Shown here piece after piece: positions 12,464-21,252 of a DNA stretch of 21,328 nt. The stretch comes from a virus, in the IMG/VR virus record IMGVR_UViG_3300044825_002499, positions 1 to 21,328 of that record, one strand, 5' to 3'. Made by a program: the position numbers and the translations under genes. Positions within the stretch are counted from its first letter, which is position 1; every line of letters begins with the position of its first letter. The notes under the pieces were generated by a model. It made no database searches. It was given only the letters and a program-made list of their open reading frames with translations, and was not told the origin of the DNA.

Positions 12464-12535
12464 GACGTAAGTCCTAGTGCCGCAAGGACTTGCGACGGGC
12501 GCGGCCCGCCCAGCTTTGGACACCTTTGGTCCACG
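12464..12535 (+). repeat. Boundary element R1 (hairpin core then GC box)
   Basis: Imperfect hairpin CGTAAGTCCT and AGGACTTGCG around the loop AGTGCCGCA, then a GC-rich box GCGGCCCGCC, then TGGAC-ACCTTTG-GTCCA, a second hairpin. It is non-coding and lies about 40 bp before promoter P6. R2 and R3 share this order of modules. Confidence 0.8.
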
Positions 12536-13273: not shown

Positions 13274-13344
13274 GACGCAAGTCCTAGAGCCTCAAAGACT
13301 TAGGACGGTCGCGGCCCGCCCGCCGTGGACACCTTTGGTCTGGC
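13274..13344 (+). repeat. Boundary element R2 (hairpin core then GC box)
   Basis: Core AAGTCCTAGAGCCTCAAAGA then TCGCGGCCCGCCCG and GGACACCTTTGGTC, as in R1 and R3. The stem has an A in place of G (AAGTCC against AGACTT), so the hairpin is imperfect while the loop TAGAGCC is kept. Precedes promoter P9. Confidence 0.8.
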
Positions 13345-14298: not shown

Positions 14299-14368
14299 GA
14301 CGTAAGTCTTAGAGCCGCAAGGACTTATGGCCGACGCGGCCCGCCCGCGACGGACACCTTTGGTCACG
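14299..14368 (+). repeat. Boundary element R3 (hairpin core then GC box)
   Basis: Core AAGTCTTAGAGCCGCAAGGA then ACGCGGCCCGCCCG and GGACACCTTTGGTC. Same order as R1 and R2, preceded by ATCGACG as R2 is. Precedes promoter P11 by 50 bp. Confidence 0.8.
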
Positions 14369-15805: not shown

Positions 15806-15873
15806 TGTACAGCCGTACACTCGCGGGGCCGCGCCGCCGAGCCATAAGTCCTAGAGCCACAAGCACTTACGAC
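15805..15873 (+). repeat. GTGTAC palindrome and boundary element R4 (GC box then hairpin core)
   Basis: GTGTAC-AGCC-GTACAC (15805-15820), a perfect inverted repeat, abuts R4 (15822-15873). In R4 the GC-rich box (GGGGCCGCGCCGCCGAG) comes before the core AAGTCCTAGAGCCACAAGCA, the reverse of the order in R1-R3. The stem is broken (AAGTCC against GCACTT). Precedes promoter P14. Confidence 0.78.
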
Positions 15874-15920
15874 AACGAACAAAAAATAAAAAATAATTTC
15901 TTTTTTTTCTGCTAAAGCTC

Positions 15921-16498: not shown

Positions 16499-16689
16499 TC
16501 GGGAAAAGTGGTGTGTGAGAACACCAAGCGCGTAACACCGCTTAACGGCTCCACACTGAAAGGAGTACGGCCACGAAGTACCATTTGTCTTTGCCAAACT
16601 ACACGGAGTCTTTTGCTTCGCGTGGCCAAAATCCCATGATTTGTCTCTGCTTAACTATGCAGAGTTTTGCGCGAGCGTGGCCGATTTCC
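16499..16689 (+). ncRNA. Structured non-coding region with tandem repeat
   Basis: No credible gene in 190 bases; it would be the 3' part of the P15 transcript or a separate RNA. Hairpins: GGTGT-GTGAGA-ACACC (16512-16527), AAGCG and CGCTT (around 16528-16545), and GGCCACGAAG (16569-16578) with CTTCG-CGTGGCC (16616-16627). Two related units, 16583-16627 and 16639-16682 (56 bp apart), both run TTTGTCT to GCGTGGCC. Each has a central hairpin: CUUUG with CGGAG in the first, CUCUGC with GCAGAG in the second, so pairing is kept while sequence differs. Either GCGTGGCC copy could pair with GGCCACG. Hypothesis only. Confidence 0.45.
16583..16682 (+). repeat. Two-unit diverged tandem repeat
   Basis: Units of about 45 bp at 16583-16627 and 16639-16682, period 56 bp, both opening ATTTGTC and closing CGTGGCC. 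Diverged in the middle. Confidence 0.65.
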
Positions 16690-16740
16690 GGGGCGCGGCC
16701 CGCCGAGTCGCAAGTCCTAGAGCCACAAGGAGTTACGGCA
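16690..16740 (+). repeat. Boundary element R5 (GC box then hairpin core)
   Basis: GGGGCGCGGCCCGCCGAG then core AAGTCCTAGAGCCACAAGGA with mismatched stem end (GGAGTT). Same module order as R4, R6 and R7. Precedes P16 by 34 bp. Confidence 0.8.
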
Positions 16741-16774
16741 GGGAAAAATAATTCTTTTTTTTGTGCTAAAGTTC

Positions 16775-17581: not shown

Positions 17582-17782
17582 ATGAGAATCAATCCAGTAA
17601 ATCGTGACGAAATTCAGAATCGTTATATTCGACAACTTGTAGAAGGTATGGACGTTCAGGCTCTTATCGACCACGTTATATCTTCACTAGAAGTTGATTA
17701 CAGTCATTACAGCAACACAGAACTTGAGGATGAAATCCTAGATTATTACGGCGAAGATTTTGAATGGGAGGTTGAGAACTAA
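17582..17782 (+). CDS. Small acidic helical protein (66 aa)
   Basis: 66 aa. ATG 17582 is preferred: GAGG lies 11 nt upstream, and frames further up overlap the previous gene. MRINPVNRDEIQNRYIRQLV, then EGMDVQALIDHVISSLEVDY and an acidic end DEILDYYGEDFEWEVEN. Helical by eye. The form (a short helix, then a Leu/Glu-rich helix with a final acidic tail) recurs among uncharacterised phage proteins, but no named family is assigned. Stop overlaps the next start by one base (TAATG). Confidence 0.8.
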   Translation: MRINPVNRDEIQNRYIRQLVEGMDVQALIDHVISSLEVDYSHYSNTELEDEILDYYGEDFEWEVEN

Positions 17783-18018
17783 TGCGAGACGTTTATTTAG
17801 ATTTTGGCGGGTGGCTTAAACTTGATGCCAATACCCGTATGCAGTATATTGGGAACGATGAACGATTCGACCCAATTATCACCGTTGCGGTTTGGCAGTC
17901 GCTGCCAGAAGAAAATCGTGGCGAATATATCCTAGAGGATTTCGTTGCGGCTGTTCGCGACAGCGAAGATATTGAGTTTAATGAATTGACAATCACAGAA
18001 GCGGAGATTGTAGACTAA
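17782..18018 (+). CDS. Small acidic protein of unknown function (78 aa)
   Basis: 78 aa, ATG 17782 in TAATG with the previous stop; GGGAGG upstream serves as ribosome site. MRDVYLDFGGWLKLDANTRM, then FDPIITVAVWQSLPEENRGE and an acidic end (EFNELTITEAEIVD). Coupled translation with both neighbours. No family recognised. Confidence 0.8.
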   Translation: MRDVYLDFGGWLKLDANTRMQYIGNDERFDPIITVAVWQSLPEENRGEYILEDFVAAVRDSEDIEFNELTITEAEIVD

Positions 18019-18332
18019 TGCGATACCATCAAAAATTAGCGGTAGAAAATTACGTTGTAGACACAATGCAAATGTTGTGCAATACCCCAAATGCGGAGGG
18101 TGCAGATATTGAATTTGACCAAAGTGTAGATTTTGGCAACGGATATATCATGGATATTCAGGTTTGTCAAGGTGATGATGGATACTGGACGCAAGGCGTT
18201 TTGTATCGCAAGTCAGACGATGTTTATATTGAGGTTACTTGTACCGACGTTGGAGAAAGTTTCGAGGGCGAATACTGTGTACAGTACGGCGACAATGAAT
18301 ATGTTGGAGAAATTGTCAGAAAAAACGCTTGA
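18018..18332 (+). CDS. Acidic beta-rich protein of unknown function (104 aa)
   Basis: 104 aa, ATG 18018 in TAATG; GCGGAGA upstream. After an N-terminal helix (LAVENYVVDTMQMLCNT) the rest alternates short strands: GNGYIMDIQVCQGDDGYW, QGVLYRKSDDVYIEV, GEYCVQYGDNEYVGEIV. Three further Cys in the strands. Last gene of the P16 operon. The TGA stop lies inside the TTGACA of P17, so gene end and promoter share bases. No family recognised. Confidence 0.82.
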   Translation: MRYHQKLAVENYVVDTMQMLCNTPNAEGADIEFDQSVDFGNGYIMDIQVCQGDDGYWTQGVLYRKSDDVYIEVTCTDVGESFEGEYCVQYGDNEYVGEIVRKNA

Positions 18333-18356
18333 CATTCCCGGAACGCGATGTATAAT
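18329..18356 (+). promoter_or_regulatory. Promoter P17 with GAACGCGATG spacer
   Basis: -35 TTGACA (18329-18334, containing a stop), 16-bp spacer ending GAACGCGATG, -10 TATAAT (18351-18356). P18 shares these ten spacer bases and no other promoter does. Confidence 0.85.
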
Positions 18357-18361
18357 AAAAT

Positions 18362-18622
18362 AACTGGGAAGGTGGGATTAGAAGTGTCCATCCTCTAAAG
18401 AGTAGTGATACCCGCGTGTGACCTGAGACAAGTTGACCTACATCAACTCTCTGAACGAAAGAACTGGAATTGTAGGCGAAAACAAATAATGCTCAAGAAA
18501 TTAACAAGAATATCCGGTTTGTAATTGTTAATTGAAGGCTAAGTTGTTAAGAAAAAAGGTTGCGAGGGCGTGCGGTGGAAAAAGACCAATAGCTTTTGGT
18601 GTAACAACACACCCAGTTTTTT
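18362..18622 (+). ncRNA. About 260-nt structured leader or small RNA
   Basis: P17 should start RNA at about 18362. The first bases AACTGGG (18362-18368) pair perfectly with CCCAGTT (18612-18618), and a U-run follows, so the RNA is closed by its own ends. Internal hairpins: AGTTGA-CCTACA-TCAACT (about 18433-18450), AATTAACAA with TTGTTAATT (about 18498-18534), CCAA-TAGCTT-TTGG (about 18586-18599). GGTGT-AACAAC-ACACC (18598-18613) is a competing terminator hairpin. No long frame; a small ATG frame (18489, MLKKLTRISGL) lies within. The gene at 18652 has no other promoter. It does not look like tmRNA, RNase P or 6S by eye. Confidence 0.65.
18598..18622 (+). terminator. Terminator of the long structured RNA
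   Basis: Hairpin GGTGT-AACAAC-ACACC followed by CAG and six T (18617-18622). It shares bases with the end-closing helix of the RNA at 18362, so only one of the two can form at a time. Confidence 0.6.
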
Positions 18623-18651
18623 ATATTTATTAAATTAAAAGGAGAAACGAA

Positions 18652-18933
18652 ATGAAAGTTGAACTAATAGACGCAGAGCCTGATTTCAAGCCCGTCACCA
18701 TCAGCATCACCATTGAATCGCTTGCCGAACTCGGTGTGCTTTATGGGCGGTTTAATTGTCCAGTTTCGATTGTTAAACAGTATGGCTTTGGTGCTGACCC
18801 AATTAGCGGCAGACTCGCAAGAGCGGCAGATTTTAGCATCGAAGATACCCATGAAAGCTACAGAGTTTTCGACTACATCGCAGACATAGCTAAAGGCTAT
18901 CATAATAAAAAACTGGGCCTTGACATTCTTTGA
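18652..18933 (+). CDS. Small protein of unknown function (93 aa)
   Basis: 93 aa, ATG 18652 with AAGGAG 8 nt upstream. MKVELIDAEPDFKPVTISIT and then IESLAELGVLYGRFNCPVSI, with a later acidic helical part (DTHESYRVFDYIADIAKGYH). The opening F-PV-ISITIES-AEL-LY-FN pattern recurs in small uncharacterised phage proteins. Transcription must come through the structured RNA upstream, because no promoter lies between. The last codons run over the -35 of P18. No named function. Confidence 0.8.
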   Translation: MKVELIDAEPDFKPVTISITIESLAELGVLYGRFNCPVSIVKQYGFGADPISGRLARAADFSIEDTHESYRVFDYIADIAKGYHNKKLGLDIL

Positions 18934-18947
18934 ACGCGATGTATAAT
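18920..18947 (+). promoter_or_regulatory. Promoter P18 with GAACGCGATG spacer
   Basis: -35 TTGACA (18920-18925), 16-bp spacer ending GAACGCGATG, -10 TATAAT (18942-18947). It starts within the coding end of the previous gene. Confidence 0.85.
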
Positions 18948-18968
18948 GAAGGAAAAGGAGAACGCAAC

Positions 18969-19112
18969 GTGAAAATTGTAATTAGAAAAGTAGCAACCGG
19001 CCACAATCCGCCCGCATTTCGCTGCGGCAAGTGGCAAGATGCCCGCAAACGTCGCGAGCGTACACGCTCTGCCCAGCGACAAAAGTGGCAAAAGTTTCAA
19101 GAAACCACTTGA
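18969..19112 (+). CDS. Small highly basic protein (47 aa)
   Basis: 47 aa from GTG 18969, with AAGGAG 8 nt upstream. 14 Lys/Arg against 3 acidic residues, net charge about +11. After VKIVIRKVATGHNPPAFRCG comes a basic helix, DARKRRERTRSAQRQKWQKF. This composition suits nucleic acid or ribosome binding. Its stop TGA falls in TTGACA (19109-19114) that has no -10 after it: element R6 begins 10 bases further on. No family recognised. Confidence 0.75.
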   Translation: MKIVIRKVATGHNPPAFRCGKWQDARKRRERTRSAQRQKWQKFQETT

Positions 19113-19114
19113 CA
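19109..19114 (+). promoter_or_regulatory. Orphan -35 hexamer TTGACA
   Basis: A perfect TTGACA that also holds the TGA stop of the previous gene, but where the -10 should be lies the GC-rich start of element R6. It looks like a promoter broken by insertion or rearrangement at R6. Confidence 0.45.
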
Positions 19115-19124
19115 AAAACCAAAA

Positions 19125-19177
19125 CCGGCCCGCCCGCCGAGCCGCAAGTCCTAGAGCCTCAAGGACTTACAACAACG
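19125..19177 (+). repeat. Boundary element R6 (GC box then hairpin core)
   Basis: CCGGCCCGCCCGCCGAG followed by AAGTCCTAGAGCCTCAAGGA and CTTACAACAACG. The stem AAGTCC with GGACTT is perfect here. Same order as R4, R5 and R7. Upstream of P19. Confidence 0.82.
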
Positions 19178-19198
19178 CCCTAGAGCAAATGCCATGCC

Positions 19199-21146: not shown

Positions 21147-21214
21147 TGTACGGGCGTACACTACGCGGGCCGCCCGCTCGCGTCCTAAGTCCTAGAGCCT
21201 CAAGGAGTTACGGC
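21147..21214 (+). repeat. GTGTAC-type palindrome and boundary element R7
   Basis: TGTAC-GGGC-GTACA (21147-21160), then a GC box GCGGGCCGCCCGC and core AAGTCCTAGAGCCTCAAGGA with GAGTTACGGCAAG, as in R5. Same arrangement as R4, a palindrome beside the element. Precedes P20. Confidence 0.78.
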
Positions 21215-21252
21215 AAGAAAGAAAATTTTCAGAATTTCCTAAAGCTTTACCC

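Follow-up and report, generated by a model that had tools for sequence, protein, structure and literature searches.

Promoter, gene-free interval and downstream gene

The window analysed here is a virus record of 21.3 kb, a fragment of a marine phage. Terminase, portal and other genes lie on its − strand, and small early genes follow from 11.2 kb onward, nearly all on the + strand. A terminase search of IMG/VR returned a large family, in which the closest relative found with an early region was IMGVR_UViG_3300044631_002422 (hereafter G004, 148 kb), with 95% amino acid identity in the terminase and 83.7% nucleotide identity over 11 kb. A second record was identical to G004 over the 8.3 kb compared.

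A sigma-70 type promoter, TTGACA-16-TATAAT (P18329), was located at 18329–18356 on the + strand and matched the consensus at 12 of 12 positions. It is part of a 32-bp repeat, positions 18328–18359 being 88% identical to 18919–18950, and the promoter scan and the repeat comparison both identified a second copy of this promoter type at 18920–18947 (+, P18920), which drives the next small gene. Among the 21 strong promoters of the window, a leader longer than about 100 nt follows P18329 alone. About 15 early promoters are distributed between 11154 and 19316, and in most of them the −35/−10 spacer contains an invariant CCGATA (or CGATA), a likely operator for a phage regulator. The spacer GAACGCGATG is common to P18329 and P18920, where it replaces the CCGATA usual for this phage.

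Behind P18329, a putative non-coding transcript of about 260 nt occupies positions 18362–18622 (+), with the promoter at its 5ʹ end and a U-run at its 3ʹ end. The predicted start reads AACTGGG (18362–18368), and the exact complement CCCAGTT is found at 18612–18618, followed by TTTT, as had been described in the initial annotation. That the interval behind the promoter is free of genes also held true: there was no ORF of note between 18362 and 18622, all six frames being broken, and translated pieces of the interval had no convincing match in Pfam or PHROG. A decayed coding gene was rejected on the same protein-family results, together with tblastx comparisons to the relatives, which gave no match beyond chance. 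The most economical reading of this arrangement, in our view, is a non-coding transcript that is driven by P18329 and ends at a terminator-like U-run.

It had further been argued that, in a genome this compact, 260 bases without a gene are unlikely to be idle. In that form the argument is not right, as one mechanical ORF criterion leaves about 32% of the early region's + strand without coding sequence, with nine gaps of at least 120 nt. However, the gap at 18362–18622 is distinctive because the AAGTCC element is absent from it, whereas seven of the other eight gaps of this size carry the element and the eighth is a divergent control region. Copies of this dispersed intergenic hairpin element were observed at 12464–12511, 13274–13321, 14299–14346, 15806–15884, 16672–16750, 19106–19184 and 21147–21225. 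The element consists of an imperfect hairpin, AAGTCCTAGAGCCTCAAGGACTT, flanked by GC-rich GGCCCGCC, is present in many copies in G004 too, and often precedes a T-run and a TTGACA-CCGATA-TATAAT promoter; it is a candidate recombination or regulatory module for the shuffling of small early genes.

After the U-run, a Shine–Dalgarno site precedes a 93-aa gene of unassigned function at 18652–18933 (+, gene 18652). No further promoter was recognised for it in the window, and it would be served by read-through from P18329. The homologue in G004, at 34052, has 68% amino acid identity over 84 codons and is immediately preceded by a perfect CCGATA-type promoter, without a leader. Between the two phages, dS of this gene was 0.25 and dN/dS was 0.7, compared to dS values above 1 (two of them saturated) and dN/dS values of 0.03–0.17 for three other gene pairs, suggesting that gene 18652 was recently exchanged and is weakly constrained. 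A terminator ahead of gene 18652 would be tolerable because of this weak constraint and the direct promoter kept in G004. As for other early genes, 17782–18018 resembles by eye the G004 gene at 35570–35815 (GGW-L--T-M-Y-GN ... W--LP), and the gene neighbourhoods around it are shuffled between the two phages.

Predicted fold and the repeated closing motif

Folding of the 260-nt transcript gave an ensemble dominated by the end helix, with a probability of 0.59–0.998 per pair; when the transcript was extended to 18700, the end helix dropped out of the prediction. With both ends fixed, an end helix of at least 7 Watson–Crick bp arose in 25 of 5000 dinucleotide shuffles (313 of 5000 when G–U pairs were counted), and the observed end-to-end ensemble pairing was reached in 8 of 300 shuffles. 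This rarity provides mild evidence for the predicted helix, and the ends had been picked in the initial annotation after the sequence was seen. The stability of the whole fold was ordinary (−59.6 kcal/mol, z −0.63), as 55 of 200 shuffles were equally stable.

Within the closed ends, single-sequence prediction alone gave a long-range helix at 18409–18581 (+), ACCCGCGUGUGACCU / AGGUUGC(GAGG)GCGUGCGGU, which encloses two side stems. The pairing probability was 0.78–0.92 for its GUGACCU/AGGUUGC part and only about 0.4 for its outer CGCGU/GCGUG part. An AU-rich hairpin of 9 bp at 18499–18533 (+), AATTAACAA/TTGTTAATT, is a perfect inverted repeat with a pairing probability of 0.88–0.98. The 3ʹ end, at 18585–18622 (+), is terminator-like and consists of ACCAA/UUGGU and GGUGU/ACACC hairpins, CCCAGTT and T6, with a weak 5-pair stem. 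The terminal helix and a terminator hairpin had been described as sharing bases and excluding each other, in a layout typical of switches. This claim proved weak: the local GGUGU/ACACC hairpin overlaps the end helix by two bases only, had a predicted probability of 0.4–3%, and cost about 3.4 kcal/mol when forced.

The closing motif itself, ATAAAA(T)AACTGGG, is present in three copies within 570 bp, with alternating orientation. Copy c1 (ATAATAAAATAACTGGG, 18352–18368, +) overlaps both the −10 box and the 5ʹ end of the RNA and is identical to c3 at 16 of 17 positions, with one gap. Copy c2 (18612–18624, −; CCCAGTTTTTTAT on the + strand) contains the 3ʹ strand of the closing helix, and copy c3 (ATAAAAAACTGGG, 18905–18917, +) lies at the end of gene 18652. 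Viewed as candidate terminal inverted repeats, c1 and c2 can be aligned as 13 bp around a single bulge, whereas c2 and c3 form a perfect 13-bp inverted repeat that flanks gene 18652 and was equalled in none of 3000 shuffles. In an RNA, c1 (7 bp, −9.3 kcal/mol) and c3 (13 bp, −15.3 kcal/mol) would be possible but mutually exclusive partners of c2. The c2/c3 pairing, which had been missed in the initial annotation, is predicted to be a stronger alternative than the local hairpin.

As the homology extends into the promoter, the closing motif is at least partly a DNA repeat, and the closed ends may owe as much to cassette boundaries as to RNA structure. The motif counts against the RNA reading, since an RNA helix needs neither the extension into the promoter nor the recurrence at 18905. 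The interval might then have no RNA function and be cassette-borne intergenic DNA, either MITE-like or a promoter-repeat cassette, whose complementary ends are repeat copies marking recombination or insertion boundaries. Such an origin would accommodate the three alternating copies, a c2/c3 repeat far beyond chance, the reach of c1 into the −10 box outside any RNA, the promoter copies flanking the RNA and gene unit, the recent exchange of gene 18652 and the ordinary folding energy of the interval. However, it leaves the exact placement of the start and the U-run unexplained, and neither a clean empty site nor a target duplication was found. No MITE-like target site duplication was clear by eye, and the repeat is a single locus in the window, without copies in the relatives; elsewhere in the phage family only isolated 10-mers were found, and not the repeat as an element. 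On balance, we consider this explanation unlikely, though a serious contender.

Relatives and known RNA families

Both blastn and local alignment showed that the RNA is absent from G004. No homologue was found by blastn in 80 related records, by local alignment against G004 plus about 160 kb from other relatives, by nhmmer over 1.73 Mb, or by a single-sequence covariance model over 337 kb; most of the searched records stop short of this region, so that only in G004 and its duplicate can the RNA be called firmly absent. Three collection scans with 16–17-mers revealed no homologue either, the similarity at 16- and 17-mer matches in viral and genome collections not extending further, and promoter-pattern scans and an amidoligase-protein scan gave no matches. 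Several candidates were discarded: a 23-nt match at G004 100862 is inside a coding gene and due to chance, the G004 promoter at 43606 with CTGGGAA belongs to a different degenerate repeat ahead of tRNA-Lys, and two records (L002 and L003) are unrelated phages with only a 35-aa N-terminal motif in common. A conserved leader of gene 18652 was ruled out, because G004 has the same gene (dS 0.25) without a leader. The comparison suggests that the RNA was gained or lost ahead of gene 18652 since the exchange of the gene, in either direction.

The earlier statement that no known RNA could be recognised was confirmed. The Rfam search of the window was negative, and a search of 341 bases at E 10 returned only chance-level matches far below cut-off, so that a known family was rejected as the identity of the RNA. 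ARAGORN and Rfam detected no tmRNA or tRNA in the window, the Pistol ribozyme (RF02679; cut-off 34.5 bits) had no match there, and manA RNA (RF01745; cut-off 55.2 bits) had none at E ≤ 10 in 18320–18660. The proposal of a candidate new RNA class gained no comparative support and no homologue from the searches; a new class is conceivable, but as no relative was found to carry the RNA, it cannot be claimed from one sequence.

Leaders of the manA type are known from cyanophages (PMC2864571). The putative RNA resembles the manA and wcaG leaders (RF01745, RF01761) in being a structured phage non-coding RNA (the manA model has 192 nt), but it matched neither model at E 10 and showed no recognisable manA pseudoknot or 3ʹ hairpin. 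In end-closed structural RNAs such as 6S, RNase P, SRP RNA and tmRNA, the 5ʹ and 3ʹ ends pair. The same is predicted for the window RNA, here beside a U-run, but it has no family match or recognised conserved core. GOLLD and ROOL, with several hundred nt, are large phage-associated structured non-coding RNAs and share this general character, but they are larger and the window RNA has no Rfam match. At most, the window RNA would work like an end-closed phage non-coding RNA or an attenuator, and it might belong to the broad kind of phage accessory non-coding RNAs.

Non-coding RNAs were detected at several places in the relatives. A Pistol ribozyme in G004 at 35004–35065 (L087 19004–19065) scored 47.7 bits, compared to the cut-off of 34.5, whereas the 49 further family records searched had none. 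It lies in a gap of 268 nt that is free of AAGTCC, has a terminator-like hairpin at its end, and is close to the homologues of the genes on either side of the window RNA. G004 also carries a tmRNA at 61045–61333 (L095 5045–5333; 77 bits); eight clustered tRNA genes lie about 1.2 kb upstream of it. In the relative L110, a tRNA-Leu is located in a long leader behind the same kind of promoter, and a manA-like RNA lies at 1367–1557 (−) directly behind a CCGATA-type promoter; its score of 27.6 bits is under the 55.2-bit cut-off, with E 0.0037 in 62.9 kb and E 1.9e-5 in a local search. An RNA behind a promoter in L112 (1870–2025, −) ends in a tRNA-like 3ʹ portion (GTAGGGTTCGACTCCCTACCCCGTCCGCCA) and can form an extended pairing (CTTGCAGG/CCTGCAAG); it was not called by ARAGORN, and no Rfam match came close to the cut-off. 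In L111 (3430–3823, −), strong promoters precede two long leaders in a row that look structured and have no Rfam match. By analogy, the prior for the window transcript as an RNA gene is raised, because leaders and gaps of the relatives hold non-coding RNAs.

Interpretation of the transcript

With a confidence slightly short of even, we read the window transcript as a lineage-specific, accessory non-coding RNA gene in a shuffled cassette of the phage early region, mostly terminated and with some read-through into gene 18652. The promoter sequence, the lack of coding, the complementary ends and the absence from G004 were observed directly, and the missing AAGTCC element, the rarity of the end helix in shuffles and the non-coding RNAs in leaders of relatives also favour this reading. 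Transcription would start at about 18362, and the RNA would fold into a branched structure in which the 5ʹ AACUGGG pairs with the CCCAGUU directly before the U-run. The end helix, alone or with local hairpins, would lead mostly to termination at about 18622, and the product would be a stable, end-closed non-coding RNA. Residual read-through would supply the weakly constrained gene 18652, and the unit may have been gained or lost via recombination between the repeated promoter and motif copies. The ordinary fold stability, the lack of a homologue, the weak terminator hairpin and the loss of the end helix at 18700 count against an RNA gene.

The interval could also act as a regulatory 5ʹ leader of gene 18652, resembling an attenuator or riboswitch, in which CCCAGUU pairs with the 5ʹ end, the local hairpin or the 13-base c3 and thereby sets termination against read-through. 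The order of promoter, non-coding leader, U-run and gene with a Shine–Dalgarno site is that of attenuators and terminator-type leaders, no second promoter was recognised for gene 18652 in the window, the pairings of c2 are mutually exclusive, and the manA-type leaders of cyanophages offer a precedent. However, there is no notable leader peptide in the window, the local terminator is weak and disfavoured, and the predicted access to the ribosome site was nearly equal between the states (0.54–0.56). In addition, the gene is weakly constrained, and in G004 its homologue follows a strong promoter directly, without a leader. A regulatory leader is clearly unlikely. Still more doubtful, as something of a long shot, is an undescribed class of phage non-coding RNA whose 5ʹ end is the upstream arm of its own terminator and in which c3 can take the shared strand in read-through transcripts, giving a three-strand switch of c1, c2 and c3 that links non-coding RNA and mRNA.

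A trans-acting antisense RNA is very improbable. Positions 18373–18386 (UGGGAUUAGAAGUG) could form 14 contiguous pairs (11 Watson–Crick plus G–U, U–G and G–C) with the initial codons of gene 19355, which is amidoligase-like, just inside the reading frame; this was the best of 37 gene starts, and the loop part at 18379–18385 is predicted to be open. However, an equally good site in some gene was found for 5 of 60 shuffled RNAs, which is not significant across the 37 gene starts, 132 of 150 shuffled RNAs did as well by interaction energy, and chance alone can account for an 11-nt match in 21 kb. Antisense pairing to phage gene starts was accordingly rejected as not significant overall. Least probable of all is that the RNA belongs to a known family (tmRNA, manA, RNase P, 6S, Pistol or others) and has diverged strongly from it. 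Although a manA-like RNA, a Pistol ribozyme and a tmRNA occur in relatives, the 341-base Rfam search at E 10 gave only chance-level matches and ARAGORN none.

Phage early regions hold many short unannotated transcription units. If the transcript is not an RNA gene, the locus is a caution that end-to-end complementarity in a single sequence can stem from a DNA repeat. If it is a discrete RNA, it would add to the evidence for structured RNAs as exchangeable cargo in this phage family, alongside the tRNAs, tmRNA, Pistol ribozyme and manA-like RNA of its relatives.
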